Origin: an uncultured Oscillospiraceae bacterium
Lineage (GTDB): Bacteria; Bacillota; Clostridia; Oscillospirales; Oscillospiraceae
Assembly: GCA_947588955.1 (NCBI GenBank)
Contig: CANPYX010000007.1
Span: 1 to 64,000 of the forward strand
Direction of reading: 5' to 3'
Length of the DNA stretch: 64,000 nucleotides
The notes below the pieces were generated by a model. That model was not told the origin of the DNA. It did no database searches and saw only the letters and a program-made list of their open reading frames with translations. Position 1 is the first letter of the stretch. Every line of letters starts with the position of its first letter. Made by a program: the position numbers and the translations under genes. Below are positions 1 to 21,400 of the stretch, one piece after another.

Positions 1-438
1 TACCGCAAGGACGAGGTGGACGCCACCCACTCCCCCATGTTCCACCAGGTGGAGGGCATGGTCATCGACAAGGGCGTGACCATGGCCGACCTCAAGGGCA
101 CGCTCAACGCCGTGGTCCGGGGGCTCTACGGGGAGGGCACCAAGACCCGCTTCCGCCCCCACCACTTCCCCTTCACCGAGCCCTCCTGCGAGATGGACGT
201 CCAGTGCCACAAGTGCGGCGGCGTTGGCTGCCCCACCTGCAAGGGCGAGGGCTGGATCGAGCTCCTGGGCGCCGGGATGATACACCCCCGCGTCCTTGAA
301 ATGGCCGGCATCGACCCCGACGTCTGGTCCGGCTGGGCCTTCGGATTCGGGCTGGAGCGCACCGCCATGCGCCGGTTCAGGATAGACGATCTGCGCCTCA
401 TATTTGAAAATGACGTGCGGTTTTTGGAACAGTTTTAA
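1..438 (+). CDS. pheS: Phenylalanyl-tRNA synthetase alpha subunit, C-terminal part (5' end outside window)
   Basis: Partial gene entering from the left edge in frame 1 and ending with TAA at 436-438. It is the C-terminal part of the class II catalytic subunit that charges tRNA-Phe as an alpha2-beta2 enzyme in the cytoplasm. The visible fragment carries the [11 protein letters not shown] motif, the [13 protein letters not shown] motif 2 region, a CxxC pair (CHKCGG, CPTCKG) commonly seen in Firmicute PheS, and the motif 3 stretch [12 protein letters not shown]. The partner gene pheT starts 12 bp downstream with its own GGAGG ribosome site, the usual pheST operon arrangement. The start codon and promoter are not in the window. 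Confidence 0.97.
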
Positions 439-450
439 GGAGGCGTTGAG

Positions 451-3132
451 ATGAATTTATCCAGAAAATGGCTCAATGAGTTTGTGAATATCGATGTCCC
501 TAACAGGGAATTTGCCGAGGCCATGACCCTCTCCGGCTCCAAGGTGGAGACCACCGAGGACCTGGGCGCGGAGATAAGCAACGTGGTCGTGGGGCGCATA
601 GTCTCCATGGAGAAGCACCCCAACTCCGACCACATGTGGGTCTGTATGCTGGACGTTGGGCGCGGCGAGCCCGTGCAGATAGTCACCGGCGCGTGGAACA
701 TCCACGCGGGCGACCTTGTGCCCGTGGCGCTCCATAAGTCCACCCTCCCCGGCGGGAAGAAGATCGAAAAGGGCAATCTCCGTGGCGTCAAATCCAACGG
801 TATGCTCTGCTCCTTAAAGGAGCTGGGGCTGGATGAGCGTGATTTTCCCTACGCCGCCATCACCGCCGCCGCGCTTTTGAACGACTACCACCCCACGGAC
901 CCGGAAAAGCCCAGCATCCCCGCGGACATCAAGCCCGGCGACAAGGTATTCGGGCCCGTTATCGCCGCCCGCGCCGCCGTCTGCGAGACAAACCCCGACG
1001 GCACATACACCGTCACCCTTGACCCCGCCGCCACGGTCACAACGCCCTGCCAGAATATCCACGAGGGCGACATGGTGGCGTACAACACCAAATCAGGCTC
1101 CATCTGCACCCTCGCCGACCTTCGCGCGGAGCAGCGGGAGTTCCCCCACTGCATCGAGGACGGCATCTTCGTCCTCCGGGAGGACTGCGCCCCCGGCGAC
1201 GACATAAAGCCCGTGATTAACGCCGACGACTCCGTTGTGGAGTTTGAGATCACCCCAAACCGCCCCGACTGCCTCTCCGTCATCGGTCTTGCCCGCGAGG
1301 CGGCGGCGACATTTGACAAACCTTTGACGCTCCACACCCCCGTCGTAAAAGGCGGCGGCCCCGGCGTCCTCACCGATCTTTTGAAGGTCGAGACCCCGGA
1401 CCCTGACCTCTGCCCCCGCTACACCGCCCGCATGGTGCGCAATGTGAAGATCGCCCCGTCCCCCAAGTGGATGCGCGAGCGCCTTCGCGCCATGGGCGTG
1501 CGCCCCATCAACAACATCGTTGACATCACAAACTACGTGATGCTTGAGTACGGCCAGCCCATGCACGCCTTCGATTACCGCTACGTCAGGGGCGGCAGGA
1601 TAATCGTCCGCCGCGCGGCGGAGGGGGAGGAGCTCACAACCCTGGACGGTCAGGTCCACACCCTCACCCACAACCATCTTGTCATCGCCGACGACACCCG
1701 CGCCGTGGGCCTTGCCGGTATCATGGGCGGCCTCAACTCCGAGATCGTCTCCGACACCGCCGACGTGGTTTTCGAGTCCGCCAACTTTGACGGCACCTGC
1801 ATACGCAAGGGCGCCCTCGCCCTGGGTATGCGCACCGAGGCCAGCGCCAAATTTGAAAAGGGCCTGGACATCATGAACACCCTCCCCGCCGTCAACCGCG
1901 CCTGTGAGCTGGTGGAGCTGCTGGGCGCCGGAGAGGTCCTTGACGGCGTCGTGGATATCCAAAACCGTATCCCGGAGCCCTACTCCATGGAGCTGGAGCC
2001 GGAGAAGATCAACGCCCTCCTCGGCACCGACATTTCCGAGGCGGAGATGGTCCGTATCCTCAAAAAGCTTGATTTCCAAGTGGACGGGCGGAGGGTCACA
2101 GTCCCCTCCTGGCGCGGCGACGTTCGGCGTATGGCGGACCTGGCCGAGGAGGTGGCGCGCTTCTACGGCTACAACAACATCCCCGTCACCCTCATGCGCG
2201 GTCAGACCACCCGCGGCGGCTACAGCGACGCCCAGAAGCTTGAGAACCGCCTGGGCGCCCTCGCCCGCACCTGCGGCTATGACGAGATAATCACCTACTC
2301 CTTCATTTCCCCCACGGCCTACGACAAAATTCTCTGGCCCGCCGACGACCCGCGCCGCCGGAGCTTCAAGATTTTGAACCCCCTGGGCGAGGACACCTCT
2401 ATCATGCGCACCACCACCCTCCCGTCAATGCTTGAGATCCTTGCCCGCAACAACAATTACCGCAACAAAAACGTGAAGCTCTACGAGCTCGGTCGCGTCT
2501 ACCTTCCCGACGACGCCCGTGAGGACGGGCTTGCCGACGAGCAGAGGGTCCTCACCCTCGGCGCCTACGGCGAAAATATGGACTTCTACGCCATGAAGGG
2601 CGCGGTGGAGGAGATACTTCGCGATCTGCGCGCGGAAAACGTGGAGTTCGTCCCCTGCGCGGACGACCCCTCCTACCACCCCGGACGCTGCGCCAAGGTC
2701 CTCGCCGGCGGGCGGCTGCTGGGAGTTTTGGGGCAGCTCCACCCCCTTTGCGCAAAAAATTACGGCCTTGACGAGGCTTACGCCGCCGAGCTCAGCTTTG
2801 CCGCCCTCTTTGAGGCGCAGGGCCCCGACCCGGTGTACAAGCCCCTGCCCAAATACCCCTCCGTCACCCGTGACCTGGCGATAATCGCGCCCCACGAGGT
2901 CACCGTGGCGCGGATAGAGAAGTGCATCCGCTCCGCCGGCGGCAAGTATCTGCGCGCCGTCGCCCTCTTTGACATCTACGAAGGCCCCGGCGTGCCCGAC
3001 GGGATGCGCTCCACCGCCTACTCCCTGACCCTCCGCTCCGACGAGGGGACCCTCAGGGACGCGGACGCCGACGAGACCGTTAAGGCAATCCTCAGCTCCC
3101 TTGAATCGGAGCTCGGAGCGGCCTTGAGGTAA
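451..3132 (+). CDS. pheT: Phenylalanyl-tRNA synthetase beta subunit with an extra inserted domain
   Basis: Beta subunit of the alpha2-beta2 Phe-tRNA synthetase, giving tRNA binding and editing. Length is 893 residues, about 90 more than the usual 790-800. Order seen: N-terminal EMAP/tRNA-binding fold (HPNSDHMWVC, IVTGAWNI, GMLCSLKELGL), a non-canonical insertion at about residues 135-233, B3/B4 editing and B5 regions (EITPNRPDCLSVIGLARE onward), catalytic-like core, and a C-terminal FDX-ACB domain (YPSVTRDLAII). The insertion splits the canonical DFP-IEDGIF joint, and its ends look like a decayed repeat of one motif (KELGLDERDFPY and ADLRAEQREFPH). ATG at 451 follows AAGGAGG. It is co-transcribed with pheS. 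Confidence 0.97.
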   Translation: MNLSRKWLNEFVNIDVPNREFAEAMTLSGSKVETTEDLGAEISNVVVGRIVSMEKHPNSDHMWVCMLDVGRGEPVQIVTGAWNIHAGDLVPVALHKSTLPGGKKIEKGNLRGVKSNGMLCSLKELGLDERDFPYAAITAAALLNDYHPTDPEKPSIPADIKPGDKVFGPVIAARAAVCETNPDGTYTVTLDPAATVTTPCQNIHEGDMVAYNTKSGSICTLADLRAEQREFPHCIEDGIFVLREDCAPGDDIKPVINADDSVVEFEITPNRPDCLSVIGLAREAAATFDKPLTLHTPVVKGGGPGVLTDLLKVETPDPDLCPRYTARMVRNVKIAPSPKWMRERLRAMGVRPINNIVDITNYVMLEYGQPMHAFDYRYVRGGRIIVRRAAEGEELTTLDGQVHTLTHNHLVIADDTRAVGLAGIMGGLNSEIVSDTADVVFESANFDGTCIRKGALALGMRTEASAKFEKGLDIMNTLPAVNRACELVELLGAGEVLDGVVDIQNRIPEPYSMELEPEKINALLGTDISEAEMVRILKKLDFQVDGRRVTVPSWRGDVRRMADLAEEVARFYGYNNIPVTLMRGQTTRGGYSDAQKLENRLGALARTCGYDEIITYSFISPTAYDKILWPADDPRRRSFKILNPLGEDTSIMRTTTLPSMLEILARNNNYRNKNVKLYELGRVYLPDDAREDGLADEQRVLTLGAYGENMDFYAMKGAVEEILRDLRAENVEFVPCADDPSYHPGRCAKVLAGGRLLGVLGQLHPLCAKNYGLDEAYAAELSFAALFEAQGPDPVYKPLPKYPSVTRDLAIIAPHEVTVARIEKCIRSAGGKYLRAVALFDIYEGPGVPDGMRSTAYSLTLRSDEGTLRDADADETVKAILSSLESELGAALR

Positions 3133-3733: not shown

Positions 3734-3762
3734 TTGACATCGACAAAACTATGTGCTAAAAT
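3734..3762 (+). promoter_or_regulatory. Near-consensus sigma-A promoter upstream of the first SLH gene
   Basis: TTGACA, a 17-bp spacer and TAAAAT. It is the best promoter match in the 810-bp gap and points to the SLH gene at 4260. It lies outside the 101-bp inverted repeat, so it would stay in place if the SLH cassette inverted. Confidence 0.6.
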
Positions 3763-4156: not shown

Positions 4157-4232
4157 AAAAGGCCGACCGGCACCGGTCCGGCGTTTACATAAACTAAAGT
4201 CCGGTTCATGTAACGGGCGAAAATTTAATCAA

Positions 4233-4333
4233 CAATTTTTATTAAGGAGGAAACACTACATGAAGACTCTGAAGAAGACCCTGTGCTTGGTCTTGGCGGT
4301 AGTCATGGCGGTGGGCGTGCTGGTAATTCCGGC
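4233..4333 (+). repeat. 101-bp inverted repeat, left arm (RBS and signal peptide of SLH gene 1)
   Basis: Identical over 101 bp to the reverse complement of 10572-10672. It covers 27 bp upstream of the start codon, including AAGGAGG, plus the first 24 codons (the signal peptide). Identity stops abruptly on both sides while the proteins continue as diverged homologues. This suggests recombination or gene conversion rather than simple shared ancestry. Confidence 0.9.
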
Positions 4334-6653
4334 GTATGCTACCGATTTTGACGACGACGCTGATATCACGCACGACGAGGCCGTTTCGGTGCTTAATGGG
4401 CTGAGCATCGTTAGCGGCGTCGGCAACGGAAAGTTTAACCCCGAAGGAACGTTCACCCGCGGTGACGCCGCTGTCCTTCTGACCCGCGTTCTGCTCACTC
4501 CCGATGGAGCAGAGGACCTTGACGACACCAGGGCAATCTTCGACGACGTTCCTGTGACCAGCAATTACAACAAGTACATCACTTGGGCTGTTGAGCAGGG
4601 TCACATTCACGGCGTTGGCGACAACAAATTCAACCCCACCAAGAAGCTCACCGGCGTAGAGCTTGCTGCTCTTATGCTTGAGGCAATCGGCGAGGAGCTT
4701 CCCACCGACGGCAGCTGGAAGAACTTCGTTGCCCAGAAGTCCAAGGATTACAAACTCACCGATAACATCTCCGGCTACAGCGCGGGCGCTGTCATCACCC
4801 GTGACGACGCTGTTCAGATGATGTACAACGCCATGATTGCCAGCCCCTCCGGCGAGAAGATGTGGGGTCTGTATAAAAAGGACAGTGAGGGCAACGCTAC
4901 CGGTGCTCCTGTAGAGACCTTCTCCTCCATCGTTGACGCTTACGCGGCTATGGCTGTGGTTAAGGAAGATTATGTTGTTGCTGCCGCTACTGCCAGCGAT
5001 TCCATCCTTGCAGGATACGATGTTTCCACGAGCAATGCTCCCGATGACTACGGTCGTCCCCAGACCAGCATAGTCAGGACCGTTAACGGCAAGACTACCG
5101 TTCTCTATTCCGTGAAGGATGAGCCTGTTCTTACGTATCACACTGCAGTAGGCTATAAAGATATCTACAAGGATCTTGAGCTTGACGAAGCAACATCTGC
5201 CAATGTCATTCGTTTTGGTAAGTCTACAAAGATTGCTCTCGACCTTACAAGAGATAGTAAATTCAAATATACCGGAAACGGTTGCACGACCGAAGTCTAT
5301 GAGAAATCCGACGGAACATATGACATTGTTGTAATTCCCGAGGTCCTTGTAACAGCCGGTAAGGTAACTACAAAAACCGATGCTGCTACTGGGAAAAAGA
5401 CAGTTACTCAGTCTTTCAGCCATACAGGAAATGGTGACGGCATAAGCACTGATACATTTACTTCGAGCAAGTTTGTTGACTTCCCCGAGAAGACCGTCCT
5501 TATAATGACGTTTGTCAAGGATAAGAACAATGATAACGTTGTTGTCAGCCTTGAGGAGCCTGATGTGGTCACCGGCAAGCTTGATAGGACTACCCAGAAG
5601 AATAATGGCCCCAAGACATACTACATTGACGGCACTGCTTATTTGACCGCGTATGATTGCGTTGCAGATTTTAATCCTGAGGTAGGCAAAGAGATCAGTG
5701 TTTATGTTGATTCCGAAGGATATATTCTTGGAAGCGTGAACAAAGAGCAAGAAGCCGCAAAGAACAATTACATCTATGTTCTTGCCGCCTCTGGCACCAC
5801 AACCTCCAGCAACTGGATGGTCGAAACGCCTACTTACACCGGTAAGGTTTACGGAATTCTCTCCAACGGCGAGTATGGTGAGTACACTGTGGACTATGGT
5901 ACAACAAATACAGCTGCTACCAAAGATACCGTGTACACTTACACCTACAATGAGAATGGCGACCTCGTTCTGAAGACCGATAAGGTGACTGACGGTAAGA
6001 ATACCGCGCAAATTAAGAATGGCGCCGCTTCCGCTGAGGTTAAGAAAGGCCAAGGCAATGCAGTCACCGCAATCCTGAACAGCTCCACTGTGTTCTACTT
6101 CTACAATACGGATAATAGCGGCAAGGTCAGCTCGATTGTCACCAAGACTGGCAACACCAGTTCCGGCGTCATTGAAGCGAATAAGGCTACCGTTGTTTAC
6201 GAGGGCGATGCTAATGTCGCAAAGTTCGTCTTCGTTGGTGAGAATTACACCGCGGGTGCTGTTGATGTTGACAAGGCATATGTTGTTGCTTCTACTAAGT
6301 CTTCCGAGACTGTTGCGACCGGCTCTACCTCAACAACAATAGACTCCTACACCGCATATACCTCTACCGGCGAAGAGATCACACTTTACGCAGCCCACGA
6401 TACGCAAATCACTGATGGTGTTTACGCGTACAATTCCAACAGCTACATCTCCGGCACCGCCATGCAGCTTGATGTTGATGGCACGATAACCCTTATCGGT
6501 TCTGTCATCAAGGTCGGCACTGATTACTACAACTACGACGCTGATCACGTAGTGTTCATTTGCGATGCCACCGAGCTCAAGGATGGTCAGACTATCAAGG
6601 GCTTTGTCAAGGATGGCACCATCACCGAGATGTGGGTCACCGCTGCTGAGTAA
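4260..6653 (+). CDS. S-layer homology (SLH) domain surface protein 1
   Basis: A 797-residue exported protein. The N-terminus MKTLKKTLCLVLAVVMAVG is a Sec signal peptide, probably cleaved near PAYA. About residues 35-195 contain SLH repeats (DITHDEAVSVLNGLSIVSG, FTRGDAAVLL, FDDVPVTSNYNKYITWAVEQG, FNPTKKLTGVELAALML, ITRDDAVQMMYNAM). Such repeats anchor proteins to cell-wall polysaccharide. The remaining 600 residues are Thr/Asn/Asp-rich, low in Cys, and look like beta-rich exposed repeats with no recognised catalytic motif. ATG at 4260 has AAGGAGG 10 bp upstream. A homologue with identical 5' DNA lies convergently at 8051-10645 beyond a recombinase gene. Base composition is less GC-rich than the flanking housekeeping genes. 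Confidence 0.92.
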   Translation: MKTLKKTLCLVLAVVMAVGVLVIPAYATDFDDDADITHDEAVSVLNGLSIVSGVGNGKFNPEGTFTRGDAAVLLTRVLLTPDGAEDLDDTRAIFDDVPVTSNYNKYITWAVEQGHIHGVGDNKFNPTKKLTGVELAALMLEAIGEELPTDGSWKNFVAQKSKDYKLTDNISGYSAGAVITRDDAVQMMYNAMIASPSGEKMWGLYKKDSEGNATGAPVETFSSIVDAYAAMAVVKEDYVVAAATASDSILAGYDVSTSNAPDDYGRPQTSIVRTVNGKTTVLYSVKDEPVLTYHTAVGYKDIYKDLELDEATSANVIRFGKSTKIALDLTRDSKFKYTGNGCTTEVYEKSDGTYDIVVIPEVLVTAGKVTTKTDAATGKKTVTQSFSHTGNGDGISTDTFTSSKFVDFPEKTVLIMTFVKDKNNDNVVVSLEEPDVVTGKLDRTTQKNNGPKTYYIDGTAYLTAYDCVADFNPEVGKEISVYVDSEGYILGSVNKEQEAAKNNYIYVLAASGTTTSSNWMVETPTYTGKVYGILSNGEYGEYTVDYGTTNTAATKDTVYTYTYNENGDLVLKTDKVTDGKNTAQIKNGAASAEVKKGQGNAVTAILNSSTVFYFYNTDNSGKVSSIVTKTGNTSSGVIEANKATVVYEGDANVAKFVFVGENYTAGAVDVDKAYVVASTKSSETVATGSTSTTIDSYTAYTSTGEEITLYAAHDTQITDGVYAYNSNSYISGTAMQLDVDGTITLIGSVIKVGTDYYNYDADHVVFICDATELKDGQTIKGFVKDGTITEMWVTAAE

Positions 6654-6682
6654 TCCCCGCACTCCCTAACCCCCAATAGCAA

Positions 6683-6721
6683 CCCCAAGCCCCGCGGCGT
6701 TTGCCGCGGGGCTTGGTTTTT
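6683..6721 (+). terminator. Intrinsic terminator of SLH gene 1; 39-bp inverted repeat with 7995-8033
   Basis: A 13-bp GC-rich stem with GTTT loop followed by GGTTTTT, ending the SLH gene 1 transcript. The identical 39 bp occurs in inverted orientation at 7995-8033 as the terminator of SLH gene 2. The two copies bracket the recombinase gene. Confidence 0.92.
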
Positions 6722-6845
6722 GTGAAAAAACTGGGCTATTGCGATGTTATGTCGACTTGGTAACCGGTTGTGTCAAATTTGTGTGTCTTGTGGGTGTATT
6801 GTAAAAAATACCGGGTGGCGGATAATGTCGAAAAGTAAATTTTTG

Positions 6846-6874
6846 TTGCAATTGGGCGGGTTTGCCTACATAAT
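6846..6874 (+). promoter_or_regulatory. Predicted promoter of the recombinase gene
   Basis: TTGCAA, a 17-bp spacer and CATAAT, 45 bp upstream of the recombinase start. It gives the recombinase its own transcription start downstream of the SLH gene 1 terminator. Confidence 0.5.
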
Positions 6875-6919
6875 CTTCTCATTATCCCTTAAAATAGTTG
6901 AAAGAGGAGGTTATTATTC

Positions 6920-7996
6920 ATGAGAAATCCAAACGGATACGGGGGCGTATCCAGGCTGCCGGGGAATCGGAGGCGGCCGTTCAGGGCGCGGGTCACGGTG
7001 GGCTGGTCGGAGAGGGACGAGGGGCGGTCGGTGCAGAGGTACGCCACCATCGGCTATTACGCCACCCGCAACGAGGCGATGATGGCGCTGGCGGAGTACA
7101 ACCGGGACCCGTGGGACCCGGCGCTGCGGGGGATCACCTTCAAATCCGCCTTCGACCGCTGGGCGCCGGACTATTTTGAAAAATACCCCAGCACCCGCCG
7201 CGTCACCGAAAGCGCCATGGCGATGTGCCGCAGGATTTGGAACCTGCCGATACGCGATCTGCGGACGTACCACCTACAGGAGGTTATAGCCGGCATGGAC
7301 GACAAGTCCAGGGGCTACCAGTCAAAGGTCCGCTCGCTCATGCACATGGTCTACCGCTGGGCGATGAGCCGGGACATCACGCAAAAGGACTGGTCGCAGT
7401 TCGTGGAGCTCACGGCGTCGGAGCAGGATTCGGCGCGGCGGGTCTTCACCGCCGGGGAGGTGGCGCTGCTCTGGAGCGTTTGGAGGCAGGGGGGCATGGA
7501 GGAGCTGGAACCCAGGCGGCACAGGGGCGCGGGGCTGCTGGATTCGGTGCTGCTGCTCCTTTACACGGGTATGCGCGTGGGGGAGCTTTTGGGGCTGCGG
7601 CGCGAGGAGGTACACGCGGAGGAGCGTTACATCGATCTGCGCGGCACAAAGACCCGCGCCGCCCGCAGGACCGTGCCGCTGCACAGGGAAATTTTGCCGG
7701 TGGTGGACGGGCTTTTACGCCGGCCGTCGCCGGAGTTTTTGCTTTGCCGGTCCGACGGGCTCCCGCTGACCTACTCCCAGTACAAGGGCTGGTTTGACCG
7801 GGTCATGCCGGAGCTGGGAATGTCGCACACGCCCCATGACACCCGGCACACGTTCATATCCGCCCTGGACACCGCCGGCGTCCGCCGCGCCGCCACAAAA
7901 TTCATAGTCGGCCACAGCCAGCAGGACGTGACCGACCGCTACACCCACAAAGACCTCCCGGAGCTAATCCGGGAGGTCGACAAGGTTAAATACTAA
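6920..7996 (+). CDS. Tyrosine recombinase / phage-type integrase located between two SLH genes
   Basis: A 358-residue tyrosine recombinase. An N-terminal arm-type DNA-binding region (about 1-65, basic, with YATIGYYATRNEAMMAL) is followed by a SAM-like core-binding region (about 70-160) and the catalytic domain. All catalytic positions are present: Arg219 (TGMRVGELLGL), Lys244 (GTKTRAARR), His306 and Arg309 (HDTRHTF), His332 (VGHSQ) and nucleophile Tyr341 (DRYTH). The ATG at 6920 follows GAGGAGG. There is no excisionase, phage or conjugation gene nearby. It stands alone between convergent SLH genes and inside their inverted terminators, and its stop codon overlaps the right terminator repeat. 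A role in rearranging the SLH locus is inferred from position; it could instead be a relic of an integrated element. Confidence 0.93.
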   Translation: MRNPNGYGGVSRLPGNRRRPFRARVTVGWSERDEGRSVQRYATIGYYATRNEAMMALAEYNRDPWDPALRGITFKSAFDRWAPDYFEKYPSTRRVTESAMAMCRRIWNLPIRDLRTYHLQEVIAGMDDKSRGYQSKVRSLMHMVYRWAMSRDITQKDWSQFVELTASEQDSARRVFTAGEVALLWSVWRQGGMEELEPRRHRGAGLLDSVLLLLYTGMRVGELLGLRREEVHAEERYIDLRGTKTRAARRTVPLHREILPVVDGLLRRPSPEFLLCRSDGLPLTYSQYKGWFDRVMPELGMSHTPHDTRHTFISALDTAGVRRAATKFIVGHSQQDVTDRYTHKDLPELIREVDKVKY

Positions 7997-8033
7997 AAAC
8001 CAAGCCCCGCGGCAAACGCCGCGGGGCTTGGGG
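7995..8033 (-). terminator. Intrinsic terminator of SLH gene 2; 39-bp inverted repeat with 6683-6721
   Basis: Same 39-bp terminator as at 6683-6721 in opposite orientation: GC stem, GTTT loop and T tract on the minus strand. Overlaps the TAA of the recombinase gene and probably also terminates it from the plus side. Confidence 0.92.
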
Positions 8034-8050
8034 TGTGCTTGGGGGGTTAA

Positions 8051-10645
8051 TTAGCCAGCTGTAACAGGGGAATGAGTGTAGACAATGATGAATGCCTTGT
8101 TCACATCATCGCCAGACTTAAGCGTGTAAACAACAGCGTTTACATTTTCGGTGCTGGTGGAAGCGGGAACACTCGTCGCGGCAACATGATCGGTCAGGTT
8201 ATAAACCATGCAATCAGAGGTCAAATAAGTAAATGTGTCCACGCCAGTTATGATGTAACCGTCACTGACGAACGCGACCTTCGCAGAGGGAACTTTTGTC
8301 AGCTTAGTCGTATCAGGTTCAGCACTTGCAAGAATAGAAGCGTCCTGACGGCTGAAGGTAAGCTTGTAAACCTCGCCTTCAGTAACACTGAGGTTATCGT
8401 TGGAGCAGTAATAAGTTGTGGCTTTACCCTCAATAAGGAAGGTGTAAGGCGTACCGTTAAGGTCTGTGTCACCCTTGCTCATAAAGAGCGCAATGTCCTT
8501 AGTGCTTGCAGGAGTTACCTCGCCCTCGGCATTTCTAATGACATAGAGAGTATCAACAACCTTGCTGTCGTTGGAGAGAAGGAGAACCTTCACATAGTTT
8601 GTAATCTCAGCAAAATTGGTGTAACCGATGGTCTCAGCAGGAGCGGCGTAACGATAGCTGCCAAGAGCAGATCCGGTCCTGTTAACAGTCACAATCTTAG
8701 AGGTCGAGTTGGCATAATAGGTTACTCCCTCAACAACGATGTTCGCCTTCTTCTCAGCAACAGTCGCCTCGTTAGAAGTGACAACCTTACCTGTTGTAGC
8801 GGTTACAGGAGTCAGAACATAATCCCCGTCAGCGGTGAGCTCGTAAGAAGCAAAGCCAGCACCATTAACACCACCACTTTCAGTAAAGCGAACGTCATCA
8901 GCAAGAGTATAACCAGTCGCAAGACCATTCCTATCAGCAAGGCACCAAACACCGGAATCATTCTGCGCAATTGCTATGTTCTCGGTGGTAAGTTCTCCAG
9001 TGGACAGGTTGTAAAGACGAGCCTGAGCATAAGGAGCAGTGCTGGCGGAGCCAAGCGTTGTGCCAGGAGTAGCGTCTGTTGTCACATATTCAGCAACGTA
9101 CACATAATTGGGAGCGGTGATTGTAATATCGCCTGTGTCAAGAGCAATCTGAATCGCATTACCCTGGAAGTCGGTCCAGACGTTGTAAACATTGTCTTTG
9201 TTTACAGTAACAGCGCCAAAGCTATTAAACGCGCTGGAAGTAGTCAAATATGCAGCGGAGAGATACGTCTTGCTGCCCTCAACAAGGAAGTAATGATCGG
9301 TAGTGCTGGTGCTCTTACCGGTGATACGACCGTTCTTGATCTCAGCCTTCTGAGCCTTGTATACCTCATCGGCAGTGCCCTGCCAAATGACAACATCGCC
9401 AACGGCAACATTCTCGAACGTCTGGGCAGGAACATCGCCCTTCTTCGCAATCAGCTCGACAGCGCCGTTCTTGAGGTTATCAGCGGTGACAGGCTGTGTA
9501 TGTGTTGTAAGGACATAAATCTCATAGACATCGCCATTCTTATAAACGGTGGTCTCGGAGCCCTGACCGCCCATGACATAATTGCTTGCATTAGTTGAAA
9601 CATCCGCCTCAACAATATTGTTAGGATTAGTGTCAGTGCGATCAGCATGACCTGCTGACATTTCTTTTCTATCACCGTCAATGAAGAGCTTAGCCTGAAC
9701 TGACTTGGTGCCAGTAATATCAAGCTTGAGGTCAGTCACAAAGATATCTTTCAGAGTCTTTGCGGTGTAGTAAGGACCGGCAACAGGGGTGTTTTCCTCA
9801 AGATAAAGGTCTTCCTCGGTCTTCTTTCCGGCGTCCTTTGTCCAGGTGGTGGTGGGACGACCGAAAATGTCCTTATTGGCTGTATTGTGGGTCACGTTAT
9901 AGGTGTTGTTGAGAATGTTGTCGTTACCGACAGTGACGGGCGTGGGCTGACCATTAGTATCACCAAGAAGCCTCATCATAACGAGAGCCTCGGTCAGCGT
10001 GTCATAGGTGCCGTAGTCAGTATCGCCAATCTTAACCTGATAACGGGTCTCGCCGTTGGGGTCATACTTCATGGCGTTGAACATCATTTGAACAGCATCG
10101 TCACGGGAGATGACCTTGGAGGCGGAGTAAGCGGTGATGCCCTCAGAAAGCCCATATTCCTTTGTTTTCAGAGCGACAAAGTTCTTGAGGTTAGAGGAAT
10201 CAAGCTCCTCGCCCAGGACCTCAAGCATGAGAGCGGCAAGGTCAAGACCGGTGAGCTCCTTGTTGGGCTTGAAGGTCCCGTCGGTGTAGCCGTGAATGTA
10301 GCCTTCCTGAACAGCCCAAGTGACATACTTGTTGTAGTTGCTGGTCACGGGAACATCGCTGAAATCAGCCTTGGTGTCCGTAAGCAGAGCAGCGTCCTCC
10401 GGAGTCAGGACAACCTGAGCCAGAAGGATTGCGGCCTGTCCACGGGTGAAATTCCCGTCGGGATCAAAGGTCCCGTCTCCCTTGCCGTTGACGATGCTCA
10501 GCCCAGAGAGCACCGCAACAGCCTCGTCGTGCGTGATATCGGCATCGTCAGTGAACTCGGTAGCAGCGTTAGCCGGAATTACCAGCACGCCCACCGCCAT
10601 GACTACCGCCAAGACCAAGCACAGGGTCTTCTTCAGAGTCTTCAT
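8051..10645 (-). CDS. S-layer homology (SLH) domain surface protein 2
   Basis: An 864-residue exported protein homologous to SLH protein 1. The start is set at 10645 because the signal peptide MKTLKKTLCLVLAVVMAVG and the AAGGAGG ribosome site match gene 1 exactly; an in-frame upstream extension to 10744 has no ribosome site. Cleavage is probably near PANA-A. SLH-type segments follow (DITHDEAVAVLSGLSIVNG, FTRGQAAILLAQVVL, FSDVPVTSNYNKYVTWAVQEG, FKPNKELTGLDLAALML, ISRDDAVQMMFNAM) to about residue 200. The long Thr/Asn/Ala-rich remainder differs from gene 1. No strong promoter is visible just upstream, in contrast to gene 1. This would fit a silent or weakly expressed partner, but that is inference. 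Confidence 0.92.
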   Translation of the reverse strand: MKTLKKTLCLVLAVVMAVGVLVIPANAATEFTDDADITHDEAVAVLSGLSIVNGKGDGTFDPDGNFTRGQAAILLAQVVLTPEDAALLTDTKADFSDVPVTSNYNKYVTWAVQEGYIHGYTDGTFKPNKELTGLDLAALMLEVLGEELDSSNLKNFVALKTKEYGLSEGITAYSASKVISRDDAVQMMFNAMKYDPNGETRYQVKIGDTDYGTYDTLTEALVMMRLLGDTNGQPTPVTVGNDNILNNTYNVTHNTANKDIFGRPTTTWTKDAGKKTEEDLYLEENTPVAGPYYTAKTLKDIFVTDLKLDITGTKSVQAKLFIDGDRKEMSAGHADRTDTNPNNIVEADVSTNASNYVMGGQGSETTVYKNGDVYEIYVLTTHTQPVTADNLKNGAVELIAKKGDVPAQTFENVAVGDVVIWQGTADEVYKAQKAEIKNGRITGKSTSTTDHYFLVEGSKTYLSAAYLTTSSAFNSFGAVTVNKDNVYNVWTDFQGNAIQIALDTGDITITAPNYVYVAEYVTTDATPGTTLGSASTAPYAQARLYNLSTGELTTENIAIAQNDSGVWCLADRNGLATGYTLADDVRFTESGGVNGAGFASYELTADGDYVLTPVTATTGKVVTSNEATVAEKKANIVVEGVTYYANSTSKIVTVNRTGSALGSYRYAAPAETIGYTNFAEITNYVKVLLLSNDSKVVDTLYVIRNAEGEVTPASTKDIALFMSKGDTDLNGTPYTFLIEGKATTYYCSNDNLSVTEGEVYKLTFSRQDASILASAEPDTTKLTKVPSAKVAFVSDGYIITGVDTFTYLTSDCMVYNLTDHVAATSVPASTSTENVNAVVYTLKSGDDVNKAFIIVYTHSPVTAG

Positions 10646-10672
10646 GTAGTGTTTCCTCCTTAATAAAAATTG
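10572..10672 (-). repeat. 101-bp inverted repeat, right arm (RBS and signal peptide of SLH gene 2)
   Basis: Exact reverse-complement match to 4233-4333 over 101 bp. The sequence beyond each end differs immediately (upstream leader on one side, mature protein on the other). The pair encloses about 6.2 kb with both SLH genes and the recombinase. Confidence 0.9.
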
Positions 10673-10807
10673 GGATATATTTACAGTAACATTATGGAGG
10701 AAAACCCGCCTATTTGCGCAAAAACAGGCGAAAATCAAAAACATTTCGACAGAATTCGCAATTTTCCCTGTGTCTTATATGCGTATTATCCAAATTCTGG
10801 CAAAGTA

Positions 10808-10836: not shown

Positions 10837-10875
10837 AACAGTTTAGGAAACAATCACCTTTTTTGGAGGCGCCGC

Positions 10876-12168
10876 ATGGATAAACGTGTAAAGGAATATT
10901 TCGAGAGCCGTTCCGACGAAATTTTGGAGGATATTTCCGCCCTTGTCGCCGTTGACAGCGTCCGAGGCGATGCCGAGCCCGGCGCGCCCTACGGACCGGG
11001 ACCGCGCAGGGCGCTGGAGAGGGCGCTGGAGATAGTCCGCGCCCACGGGCTTGAGGGCAGTATTTTGGGCGACCGGGTCCTGGTCGCCGAGCTGGGCGAG
11101 GGCGAGCCGGAGCTGGGGATTCTGGCGCACCTGGACGTGGTGCCGCCGGCGGGGGAGTGGAAGGTCACCGAGCCCTACGTCATGCGCCGCGTCGACGGCA
11201 AGATTTACGGTCGCGGCGTCATCGACGACAAGGGGCCCGCCGTCTGCGCCCTTTACGCGCTGCTCTGCGCCCGCGATTTAGGGCTTGTGCGCCGGAAGGT
11301 GCAGCTCATCCTGGGCTCTGACGAGGAGTGCGGCTCCGGAGACATCGAGTGGTACATGGAGCATTACAAAATGCCGCCGAAGGTCTTTACCCCCGACGGC
11401 TCATTCCCGGTGGTGAACACCGAAAAGGGCCGCGCGCACCTGCTCATCACCGCCCCGCCACAGGGCGAGGGCGTGAAATATGTGTCCGGCGGCTCGGTGC
11501 CCAACGCCGTCCCCGCCGTGTGCCGCGCGGAGCTATCCGACGGGGAGAGGATCGAGGTCACCGGCCGCGCCGCCCACGCCAGCACACCCGACGAGGGCGA
11601 CAACGCCGTGACAAAAATGCTTGAGGAGCTGGCGGAACGCGAGGGCGGCGGATTTGCCCTTTTCCGTGCCCTCAGCCGGGCTTTCCCCCACGGGGATAAC
11701 GGAGGCTTCGCCCTGGGGCAGAATTGCTCTGACGAGCTCTCAGGCGCTCTCACGGTGAATCTGGGAGTGCTGGAGTACGACGCAGACAAGGGACTCACCG
11801 CCCACGTGGACTGCCGCGTGCCCGTCTGCGGCGACGGAAAGAAGATCGCCGCCGCCCTCCGGGAGACGCTGGGCGATTTGGCGAAGGTGGAAATATTGGG
11901 CGTGTCCGCCCCGCACCACACGCCGGGGGATTCGGATTTCGTCCGGGGACTTTTGAAAATCTACGAGGAGTACACCGGGGAGAGGTGTGAGCCCCAGTCC
12001 ATGGGCGGCGGGACGTATGTCCACGAGATCGAGGGCGGCGTCGCCTTCGGCGCCGAGTTCCCCGGAAGCGATGTCCACATGCACGAGCCCGACGAGAGGG
12101 TGGACGTCGCGGAGCTTCTCCTGGGCGGAGAGATGTACGCCGAGGTTGTCGCCGCCTTCTGCGGCTGA
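10876..12168 (+). CDS. pepV: M20 family dipeptidase, PepV-like
   Basis: A 430-residue cytosolic zinc dipeptidase. M20 motifs are in order: LAHLDVVPPAGEW (metal His/Asp) near residue 90, IYGRGVIDDKGP (bridging Asp) near 115, and DEECGSGD (catalytic and metal Glu) near 150. A dimerisation/lid domain is followed by a C-terminal GGGTYVHEIEGGVAFG stretch with a late metal-binding His. The start is the ATG at 10876 behind TTTGGAGG; an in-frame upstream extension to 10714 is Lys/Arg-rich and crosses the promoter. It probably cleaves small peptides for amino-acid use. It is a single-gene unit followed by the YihY gene 64 bp later. Confidence 0.9.
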   Translation: MDKRVKEYFESRSDEILEDISALVAVDSVRGDAEPGAPYGPGPRRALERALEIVRAHGLEGSILGDRVLVAELGEGEPELGILAHLDVVPPAGEWKVTEPYVMRRVDGKIYGRGVIDDKGPAVCALYALLCARDLGLVRRKVQLILGSDEECGSGDIEWYMEHYKMPPKVFTPDGSFPVVNTEKGRAHLLITAPPQGEGVKYVSGGSVPNAVPAVCRAELSDGERIEVTGRAAHASTPDEGDNAVTKMLEELAEREGGGFALFRALSRAFPHGDNGGFALGQNCSDELSGALTVNLGVLEYDADKGLTAHVDCRVPVCGDGKKIAAALRETLGDLAKVEILGVSAPHHTPGDSDFVRGLLKIYEEYTGERCEPQSMGGGTYVHEIEGGVAFGAEFPGSDVHMHEPDERVDVAELLLGGEMYAEVVAAFCG

Positions 12169-18454: not shown

Positions 18455-21400
18455 ATGAACGACGCCGACACCGGCATCTACATGGAAAACGAGACGCTGG
18501 GCAACTTTGCCCGCAACACCGCCGCGGCCCTGGAGCCGGAGGGGAGCATACGCGCCTCCGCCGTCGCCGCCGACATAATGTCGGTCCTGCGCTCTCTGCG
18601 GGGACGCCTGCGCAATCTCCCACGGGGCGGGCGGAGCGAGGCGGAGGAGTGGTTTTCGGACAACTGGTATCTTGCCGAGAGAGAGGGCAAGGACGCCGCC
18701 GCCTGCTTCCACGGCTCATACCCCAAATGCGCAAAACGCGCCTGTGTCTCGGAGGCGGCCGCCGCCCTGGTGCGCTCCGGCAGGGGAGAGGTGACGGGCG
18801 AGCGTATCCGCCTCTTTCTCTCTGAATACAGCCAGACCCGCCCGCTTACTGAGCGGGAGCTTTCCGTGTTCGTCCCCGCTCTCAAGGCGGAGCTTTGCGC
18901 CTTCCTCTCCGCCGCCTTCCAAAGCCCCGACGCCGCCCTGCTCATGAAAAACGTCTTCACCTCCCTGCGCGCCCTCTCCATAATCGACGTCTCGGACATA
19001 CTTGAGGAGGTGAACCCCGTGGAGGCGGAGCTTCGCGCCGACCCCTCCGGTGTCTACCCCAAAATGGACGAGGACACCCGCCGAAGCTACCGGGACAGGC
19101 TGGCGCGGGAGGCGAAAAGGGCGGGGATGTCCGAGCACGAGGCGGCAAAGCTCGTCATAAAGCTTTCCCGCGAGGAGAAAAACGGGCACGTGGGGACCTA
19201 TATCTTCACCCGCCCGTTGGGGAAGGAGCGCCGTGAGCCAGAGGGCGGGTGGTATATCTCCACCGTAGTATTGACCTCCCTCTTTCTGGGCGTCCTCACA
19301 GGTATACTCACAGGCTCGATCCCCGCCGCCCTCCTCTCGCTCGTGCCAATATCCGAGGCTGTGAAAAACCTCCTGGACTTTTTCGCCCTCCGCCTTGTCC
19401 GCCCGAAGCGCCTTCCCAGGCTTGAGCTCTCCGGCGGCATACCCCCAAAGGGCAAGACCGTCTGCGTCATCTCCGCCCTTTTGACAGGAGAGAAGGACGG
19501 CCCGAAATTCGCCAACCTCCTGGAGGAGTACCGCCTTTTGAACCGGGACGCCGGTGAAAACCTGCTTTTCGGCATCCTCGCCGACCTCAAGGAGGCGCCC
19601 ACCCAAAGGGTGAAGGAGGACGGACCCATTCTGGAATCAGCAAGGGCGGCGGTGGAGGCGCTGAACAAAAAATATTCCGGCGGCTTTTACCTCTTCTGCC
19701 GCGAGCGCGAGCTCAACAAGGCGGACAACATCTGGATGGGGCGCGAGCGGAAGCGCGGCGCCATCGAGGACCTGGTGGAGCTGCTCAGCGGCTCAAAAAG
19801 CGCCCTGCGGGTGGCGGAGGGCGACGAAAAGCGTCTCTCCGGCACAGGCTTTATCCTCACCCTTGACGCCGACACCCGCCTCACGGCAGGCGCCGCGAGG
19901 GAGCTGGTGGGGGCGGCGCTCCACCCCCTGAACGTGCCCACGGTGGACGAAAGGGAGCGCCGCGTCGTCTCCGGCTACGGCATCTTTGAGCCGCGCGTCT
20001 CGGTGGACCTGAGAGCCGCCGGACGAAGCGATTTTTCCCGCATCTTTGCCGGCGAGGGCGGCACGGACCCATACAGCTCCGTGGTCTCCGACCTCTATCA
20101 GGACCTCTTTTCCGAGGGCACCTTCATGGGCAAGGGGCTCATAAACGTCCCCGTCTACAAAAAGCTCCTTTCCGGCGCCCTCCCCGACAACCGCGTCCTC
20201 TCCCACGACATCCTTGAGGGGGCGTATATGCGCTGTGCCTACGTCTCCGACGTGGAGCTTACGGACGGCTGGCCCTATAAGGTCACCTCCTTCCTCTCCC
20301 GCCAGGAGCGATGGACCCGCGGGGATTGGCAAAATCTGCGCTGGTGTACCCGCCGGGTCAAAAACCGCGACGGCGCGCTTGTCGTCAACACCCTCCCGTC
20401 CCTTGACCGCTGGAAGCTCTTTGACAACCTTCGCCGGAGCCTCCTGCCCGTCACCGTGCTTTTGTCCCTGCTTTTGGCTCTTGTGACGGCCTCTCCCGCT
20501 ATGGCGGCGGCGGGGCTCATTGCCCTGGCGGGAAAGCTCAGCGGGCTTCTCATCTCCGCCGCCGCGTCCTTCCTCCGCCACGACGGGACAAATCGGGCGA
20601 GGTACCACTCCGCCATCGTCTCAGGCTTCGGCGGGGCTGTCATGCGCTCCCTCATAGGCCTCGCCCTGTTGCCGGCGGAGGGCTGGATGTCGCTGAAGGC
20701 AATTATCACAGCCGTTTACCGCATGACCGTCACCCGACGGGGCCTCCTCGCCTGGGTCACCAGCTCCGAGGCGGAGCGAAGGGCGGGGAACACCCTGAAG
20801 GCAAACTATCTCTCCCTCATCGCCTGCCCCCTGGCGGGACTTTTCACCGTTTTAGCCGCCCCCTCCCCCTCAGCGGCGGCTGTGGGCGTCGTCTGGCTGC
20901 TCACACCTGCTTACGCCTGCGTCCTCTCACGGGAGATAAGCCGCGAGAAGCGCGTCTCCCCCTCGGACAGGTCCTACCTCCTGGCCCGCGCGGGCGAGAT
21001 CTGGCGCTTTTTTGCCGACAACCTGACGGAGAACGATAACTTCCTCCCGCCGGACAACCTTCAGGAGGAGCCGAACCTGGGACCCGCCCACCGCACCTCG
21101 CCCACGAATATTGGCCTTGCCATGCTCTCCTGCGCCGCCGCGTCGGATCTGGGGCTCGTGGGGGAGCGGGAGGCGTCGGAGCTGGTGAAAAGGACCCTGA
21201 CGACCGTGGAAAAGCTGGAAAAATGGAACGGACAGCTTTTCAACTGGTACGACACCCGCTCCCTTCTGCCCCTGGAGCCCAGATACGTCTCCACGGTGGA
21301 TTCGGGCAACCTCATGGGCGCGCTCATAGCCCTGGAGAGCTGGTTTACGGAGCTCAACGACGCCCAATCCGCCGAGCGGTGCCGCCTGCTCCTTGAGGCG

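Follow-up and report, generated by a model that had tools for sequence, protein, structure and literature searches.

What is a tyrosine recombinase doing between two convergent surface-layer genes that start with the same 101 nucleotides? The question is raised by a stretch of 64,000 nucleotides from an uncultured Oscillospiraceae bacterium (contig CANPYX010000007.1, hereafter C7, positions 1 to 64,000; "the window"), in which two genes for proteins with S-layer homology (SLH) domains face each other across a recombinase gene, here called INT. The source genome, G000, is a 2.56-Mb bin of 58 contigs, and it was considered within a genus sample of 34 genomes, one per species; the four relatives with named records are metagenome-assembled genomes (isolates "Lapin"). 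The answer that we consider probable, reading from sequence, is a multi-site S-layer switching system, with a fixed expression site, dispersed silent genes, and exchange at a shared leader by the resident recombinase. A fixed site on the pheT flank, with a strong promoter and a 5′ untranslated region (5′ UTR) of 370–520 nt, would drive any SLH gene that becomes attached to it through the leader. Further SLH genes, beginning with the same leader, would lie elsewhere on the chromosome, behind flanks without a strong promoter, and stay silent. Recombination between two leaders would invert either the box between convergent genes or the chromosome between distant leaders, changing the gene behind the promoter and keeping the ribosome-binding site (RBS) and signal peptide intact. 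The recombinase most likely acts itself, with the leader core as crossover region and an 18-bp direct-repeat element as accessory (arm-type) site. We infer the silence of the SLH genes away from the pheT flank, the reversibility of the exchange within a clone, and the parts given to the recombinase as catalyst and to the element as its binding site.

The shared leader and its constraint

The initial annotation described convergent SLH genes with identical inverted leaders of 101 nt and a recombinase between them, and all of these stand where it placed them (Table 1). Slightly wider arms (4233–4340 and 10565–10672) are 97% complementary over 108 nt. Coding sequence takes up 74 nt of the leader, from the start codon on, and the 27 nt ahead of it contain the RBS; beyond the leader, the coding stretches of SLH A and SLH B are 74%, then 72% alike. 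Both proteins match PF00395 (Pfam), and their N-termini, judged by eye, are alike and resemble signal peptides; S-layer formation is only predicted.

The leader pair is real, but it is not unique to these two genes. Further copies lie on contigs C41 (32–132, plus strand; 18677–18777, minus strand, 98%) and C51, whose end carries a fifth, partial copy of 46 nt. The C41 pair starts convergent SLH genes enclosing a purine (pur) operon. Across the genus, the leader query finds matches in 33 of the 34 genomes and in none of 26 others, with two to six matches in each of 22 genomes. A 28-mer leader core is perfect in all 22 of the genomes with at least two matches, and also in G015 and G017; six single-leader genomes carry it with one mismatch.

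Is this merely what good translation and secretion signals look like? Synonymous-codon identity (identity given the same amino acid) was compared between 45 genes from 18 INT-bearing genomes and nine genes from genomes without INT, the latter set including G014 and G030, both with several leaders. Between INT-bearing genomes it is 0.87 over codons 2–16, 0.43 over codons 17–25 and 0.52–0.60 over codons 30–195, with 0.62 for the INT gene itself. In the genes without INT it is 0.60 over codons 2–16 and 0.52–0.60 over codons 30–195. With codons 30–195 matching between the two groups, the contrast is confined to the leader. As far as sequence can demonstrate it, the leader core is under constraint at the DNA level. 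On the alternative of a static S-layer family, the leader would be kept for translation and secretion, and rearrangements would be rare evolutionary events or assembly artefacts. The RBS and signal peptide are indeed functional sequence, the single-leader relatives keep much of the leader, and the genomes with named records are metagenome bins. A constraint on codons 2–16 that is strong with INT, not strong without it, and ends near codon 16 nevertheless speaks against this alternative, as do the rearrangements described below, and we regard it as very improbable.

A proposed single expression site and exchange at the leaders

Leaders were divided by their upstream DNA into P type (pheS-pheT flank, with a GTTCATGTAA motif) and N type, using class motifs that are short and were picked after inspection of the data. 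The P-type leader is a single copy in 19 of 20 genomes scanned (the P end of G016 is missing); the two P-type entries of G019 are one junction, and the assignment in G005 rests on 23 nt, with the promoter off the contig. The strong promoter that the initial annotation saw outside the left arm, TTGACA-N17-TAAAAT, holds up, and relatives across the genus have it on the same flank. In a comparison in which leaders with identical 60-nt upstream tails were merged, TTGACA-N17-TA[AG]AAT lies 368–524 nt before the P-type leader in 17 of 17 genomes, and likewise in G014. The best promoter score at N-type leaders is 10 in the ~300 nt upstream that were searched. Nearly all genomes can thus be shown to carry one promoter-type leader, and the arrangement, one expression site with one P-type promoter leader per genome beside several promoterless homologues, is that of single-promoter surface-gene switching. 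In nine genomes there is just one leader and the recombinase is lacking; eight of them have pheS or pheT nearby, and promoter scores in the seven that could be scanned are 11 (G020, G025, G026, G028) or 10.5 (G003, G007, G029). The P site would then be ancestral, and the other sites later additions.

In the 5′ UTR, GTTCATGTAA forms the loop of a hairpin-like motif whose stem, by eye, changes on both sides in relatives; it has no Rfam match, and at gathering thresholds Rfam gave zero matches in the window, C41 and C51. Also by eye, GTTTACATAA, similar to TTATGT[CA]AAC, precedes P-type leaders.

Exchange becomes visible when G000 is set beside G019. We label the flanks of the window's box P (pheS-pheT side) and M (M20 peptidase side), and those of the pur box in G000 K and Y. 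The two recombinases are 97% identical, and the flanks up to the leader are 95.6 (P, with a length difference), 91.5 (M), 92.9 (K) and 93.5% (Y, over only 31 nt) identical; the proteins at corresponding junctions are only 40–45% identical. The layout is P-[A INT B]-M and Y-[C pur D]-K in G000, and P-[pur box]-M and Y-[INT box]-K in G019. Four of the eight junctions are fully contiguous (P-A and M-B in G000, M-11R and Y-36R in G019) and two are short (Y-C in G000, with 31 nt of flank; P-11L in G019, with 23 nt and a pheT-contig overlap of 77 nt). The other two, K-D in G000 and K-36L in G019 (77-nt overlap), are deduced from contig ends. The Y flank in G000 consists of only those 31 nt on C41, plus a 68% match elsewhere on C4. 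Gene D of G000 and 11L of G019 are orthologues, 92% identical, and A matches 11R at 80%; gene A therefore sits in the INT box of one species and in the pur box of the other. Flanks are intact up to the leader and the genes beyond it differ, as with a shared 5′ crossover sequence, and throughout the genus INT-box and pur-side leaders join P, M, K and other flanks in varied combinations. The comparison establishes, at the level of sequence, leader-bounded exchange between species, and recombination at the leaders is, in our judgement, very likely. Such intact flanks in front of changing genes, with contiguous junctions in many contigs, are hard to reconcile with a static family.

The model of the initial annotation is supported in part, as to a single strong promoter, leader-to-leader recombination and, across species, a recombinase in either orientation relative to the same flanks, but it was too narrow. 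What it took for one local box is part of a genome-wide set, in which whole boxes, one of them with a purine operon, change flanks. It had also named an outcome that would speak against it, a leader conserved at many unlinked SLH genes without any recombination: the leader does occur at unlinked SLH genes, but with recombination.

Two observations concern the pur box itself. Positions 3046–15923 of C41 (L006) hold the purine operon, whose genes we take to be purE, F, M, an N-fusion, H, D and L, together with MATE and DUF975-like genes, all enclosed by the convergent leader-bearing SLH genes and travelling as a passenger. Gene D (L006, 18750–16330) and 11L (L108, 51 onward) form a mosaic, 97% identical in the C-terminal part and 79% in the N-terminal 200 residues, which would fit gene conversion of the SLH part.

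Does the window's box also turn over? Scored by hand in 13 genomes, INT points toward M in eight and away from M or toward P in five. On the INT tree this takes five changes, the maximum for five minority genomes, which again argues against a static family; the sister pairs G002/G011 and G005/G009 differ in orientation. The opposite orientation that the initial annotation proposed to look for in relatives was found in so far as the recombinase lies both ways relative to the same flanks, but a flip of the whole box is not distinguished from one of INT only. SLH orthology proved useless for separating the two, head and tail genes of one genome often being mutual best matches.

Contig ends provide a further view. 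Contig overlaps are exactly 77 nt, pointing to k = 77. Nine ends whose terminal 77-mer contains flank-specific DNA were picked by the analyst and scored. G027:C4:9310, displaced by a single base, and the start of C41R, at leader position 0, are not among them, and the branch shared by G019 C71/C11 counts once. Six of the nine break off immediately ahead of a base on which that genome's leaders disagree: leader position 47 for G000 (C51 and C41L), 55 for G019 and G001, 66 for G005 and 58 for G018 (C72). Under a uniform null, the chance of at least six such ends is P ~5e-7, a value overstated because the two G000 ends share one single-nucleotide polymorphism (SNP). Ends that stop at leader SNPs count against a static family, and the breaks suggest mixed junctions within samples; mixed strains would yield the same picture. 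The G000 pattern fits the presence of both pur-box orientations in the sample, with junctions at face value left of leader position 47. It is silent on the window's own box, whose arms are identical, and for that reason inversion of this box is undetectable from SNPs.

The resident recombinase and the 18-bp element

The catalytic residues listed in the initial annotation (R219, K244, H306, R309, H332, Y341) check out, and 18 of 18 orthologues keep all six. The protein matches Phage_integrase (PF00589, Pfam E 2.3e-21), as a tyrosine recombinase should, and resembles phage and transposon integrases: a phrog_1 integrase match covers residues 17–355, and the PDB matches, led by "Int protein" (6en0, 6emy, 6emz), cover the catalytic domain only. 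No Pfam arm domain was found up to E 1, the N-terminus being covered only by phrog_1 from residue 17. Outside the genus only distant matches turned up, at 36–38% in one genome and 28% elsewhere. Within it, INT is under purifying selection (dN/dS, the ratio of nonsynonymous to synonymous rates, of 0.09–0.35 in eight pairs) and is present in 18 of the 34 genomes: 18 of the 22 with at least two leader matches and none of the 12 with fewer (Fisher p 3e-6). It lies between two leader-bearing genes in 12 of its 18 genomes; among the remaining six, contig ends cut one or both of the genes in G002, G012 and G018, in G033 only one side has such a gene, and the picture is ambiguous for G010 and G016. 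CATAAT occurs within 100 nt upstream of INT in 16 of the 18 orthologues. In the window, the sequence before the recombinase (6841–6877) and that before the right leader (10688–10724) are 78% alike in inverted orientation.

Would homologous recombination do as well? The expression site and the exchange could be real and RecA could act on ~100-bp repeats, the recombinase being a bystander or flipping only itself. The 101-bp identity of the leaders would allow this. SLH coding sequence past the core is also homogenised within genomes (synonymous identity 0.71–0.83, against 0.43–0.60 between genomes), three leaders occur without INT in the bins of G014 and G030, the leader has no clear core dyad, and inverted terminators flank INT. 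On the other side stand the restriction of INT to multi-leader genomes, its place between leader-bearing genes, the purifying selection on it, the near-fixed spacing of the element described below, and the between-species constraint on synonymous sites of the core, for which exchange by homology has no need. Exchange of the RecA-dependent sap type uses long homology and has no dedicated recombinase, and here one lies in the box. We therefore hold RecA-driven exchange to be rather unlikely and the resident recombinase to be the likely catalyst, a judgement drawn from comparison of genomes.

The proposed accessory site consists of two GTGTCTT-like 7-mers, 11 bp apart, lying antisense upstream of N-type leaders. 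It was found by eye and then counted, so the search was not blind. Among leaders with at least 220 nt upstream and distinct upstream DNA (43 N type, 27 P type; some are near copies, four of them in G001), the element scores at least 11 of 14 at 42 of the 43 N-type and at none of the 27 P-type leaders (best antisense score 9), the sole N-type leader without it being G009:C19:15932. Of 3000 random windows from the same loci, 24 score as high. Its distance to the AAGGAGG motif is 107–114 nt in 40 of 43, with two in G031 at 77. The whole G000 genome has three matches with at most one mismatch, all in the system, against one for the reversed pattern; the genus has 78 against 24. All 35 perfect matches are in genomes with at least two leaders, and one-mismatch matches occur elsewhere too, including four from genomes that have at most one leader. 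As a partly independent check, leaders were predicted in G018 from perfect element matches alone, on C112 and C41: C112 breaks off within a leader, and C41 begins too near the element for a decision. The element also occurs 3′ of SLH genes adjoining INT or purE. By eye, a motif TTATGT[CA]AAC precedes it by ~30–40 nt at many SLH 3′ ends, examples being window positions 6747–6756 (variant TTATGTCGAC) and loci L107, L111 and L119.

Integrases of the lambda and Tn916 type carry an N-terminal arm-binding domain, and their arm sites are direct repeats close to the core. The feature that bears on whether a compound core-plus-arm site exists here is the near-fixed spacing of the repeats, and by this analogy the element may be read as a putative arm-type site of the recombinase. 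It might instead bind a regulator of outward promoters (those of M20, purE and the recombinase) and have nothing to do with recombination; by eye, promoter-like hexamers do follow it at the M, K, purE and INT sites. A regulator site fits poorly with an element that, in six genomes, lies just 3′ of INT and points into its 3′ end, that in G000 faces the 3′ end of PstS, that keeps its distance from the leader, and whose three G000 copies are all at SLH borders. The regulatory explanation seems improbable to us.

Several observations weigh against the switching system as proposed. At least two leaders but no INT in the bin are found in G013, G014, G023 and G030, two of which are 97–99% complete. 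No convincing recombinase core dyad was found in the leader. The candidate AAGACC-N8-GGTCTT (leader 43–62) was rejected: 19 of 200 shuffles match it, and in G000 the branching at position 47 would place the junction to the left of the dyad's spacer. The N-type leader G012:C103 reaches a promoter score of 11.5 within 600 nt in a looser scan, and some elements, lying near outward promoter-like sequences, may have a regulatory role. Over the 500 nt that follow the leader, even orthologues are only 81% alike, against 70–77% for exchanged pairs. SLH divergence is too fast to separate whole-box from INT-only inversion, and the window's box is contiguous on C7 in one orientation. Of the nine scored contig ends, three coincide with no known SNP (G031 C52, G018 C112, G011 C19), and a tenth, G003:C3, unscorable with its one leader, stops at position 58.

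A more ambitious version of the switching system is directional, and we entertain it tentatively, as rather less than an even prospect. There would be two kinds of site across the chromosome, a single arm-less, attB-like expression leader and several attP-like silent leaders bearing a direct-repeat arm at a set distance, recombined by a phage-type integrase captured between two S-layer genes. Each switch might invert large chromosomal arcs or carry whole operons, such as that for purine biosynthesis, as passengers. Its starting point, inside one gut genus, would have been a lone ancestral S-layer gene that bore the leader.

Neighbouring features, known systems and significance

Table 1. Features of the locus in window coordinates.
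Feature	Position	Strand	Remarks
pheS	16–438		P flank, with pheT
pheT	451–3132	+	P-flank marker; P flank bears the promoter-type leader across the genus
Expression-site promoter TTGACA-N17-TAAAAT	3734–3762	+	11 of 12 consensus bases
5′ UTR hairpin-like motif GTCCG-GTTCATGTAA-CGGGC	4199–4218	+	Marker for P-type leaders
Left leader (RBS and signal peptide), proposed recombination site	4233–4333	+	Genus-wide constrained core ~4244–4307
SLH protein A, gene in expression site	4260–6653	+	Open reading frame (ORF), Pfam SLH
Terminator-like hairpin 3′ of SLH A	6685–6716	+	Inverted repeat copy at 8000–8031
18-bp direct-repeat element GTGTCTTGTGGGTGTATT	6783–6800	+	
Likely recombinase promoter TTGCAA-N17-CATAAT	6846–6874	+	Read from sequence
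Tyrosine recombinase, 358 aa	6920–7996	+	Pfam Phage_integrase, phrog_1
Terminator-like hairpin 3′ of SLH B	8000–8031	−	
SLH protein B, proposed silent gene	8051–10645	−	ORF, Pfam SLH ×2
Right leader, identical inverted copy of left	10572–10672	−	
18-bp element GTGTCTTATATGCGTATT	10770–10787	+	Antisense to SLH B; 108 nt upstream of the right leader's AAGGAGG motif
M20 peptidase, M-flank marker	10873–12168	+	

Other SLH-linked DNA in G000 is repeated or apparently invertible. A perfect 19-bp inverted repeat, ACAAAATAATCATTTTGCC, borders a segment of 188 bp that has a promoter-like sequence and adjoins a tyrosine recombinase gene (PF00589) and an SLH gene; the segment's two copies in this one genome (C1:188621–188808, or L195 11622–11809, and C37:1750–1937, L199) have opposite orientations, so that it is to all appearance an invertible promoter switch. 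Stretches of 254–1378 bp, 93–98% identical, overlap the SLH domains of large genes at five loci (C1:180.5k, C1:241.9k, C29:14.5k, C43:10k and C2:1, the last at a contig end); the C29, C43 and C2 copies have PF00589 matches nearby.

How much of this is already known? In Campylobacter fetus sap, S-layer genes with conserved 5′ ends share one promoter and are exchanged by inversion, a homologous, RecA-linked process. The conserved 5′ ends, the single promoter and, as proposed, inversion recur here, and sap is not known to have a resident tyrosine recombinase of the INT kind. The slp genes of Lactobacillus acidophilus are reportedly convergent, on ~6 kb, with a shared 5′ region. In that species, by the secondary account available, inversion of the chromosomal slp segment swaps the dominant slpA with the silent slpB (Boot et al. 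1996, cited in PMC7858073). The pairing of a dominant with a silent S-layer gene and their exchange by inversion, as that account gives them, are shared with our proposal. Here, unlike in slp, the proteins are of SLH type, the recombinase is inside the segment, leader sites are chromosome-wide, a box carries the pur operon, and an element marks the non-expressed sites; the two systems are set apart by description, not by sequence.

Clostridia already offer one case, cwpV of Clostridioides difficile, where RecV acts on a small invertible switch before one gene. DNA inversion reportedly gives phase variation of this cell-wall protein (PMC2784873). Whole genes, by contrast, would be exchanged here. 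In the Mycoplasma vpma, vsp and vsa systems, the recombinases Xer1, Mbr or HvsR link silent surface genes to a unique promoter by site-specific inversion (PMC2268961). Both kinds of system have a tyrosine recombinase gene near the locus and common sites at the 5′ ends of genes; Mycoplasma differs in that lipoprotein genes in one multigene locus are involved and the vpma and vsp sites lie in 5′ untranslated regions. Here the S-layer genes of an Oscillospiraceae genus are dispersed, the leader core spans RBS and signal peptide, and there is a separate direct-repeat element. S-layer inversion and recombinase-driven surface switching are thus already known; the dispersed layout and the element appear to be new. 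Judged by titles and the opening lines of abstracts, no SLH system with dispersed silent sites, an operon-carrying box and the element was found in print, in a search that most subscription papers lay outside.

S-layer switching has so far been known from few cultured species. If the proposal is true, a genus-wide gut system would be at hand in which the recombinase, the expression site, the silent repertoire, the sites and the likely ancestral single-gene state are all visible in sequence, and these visible parts make its evolution and mechanism testable. It would also explain why coat genes at corresponding sites are only 40–45% identical although the recombinases are 97% alike, and would be a surface-variation system that reshapes gene order.

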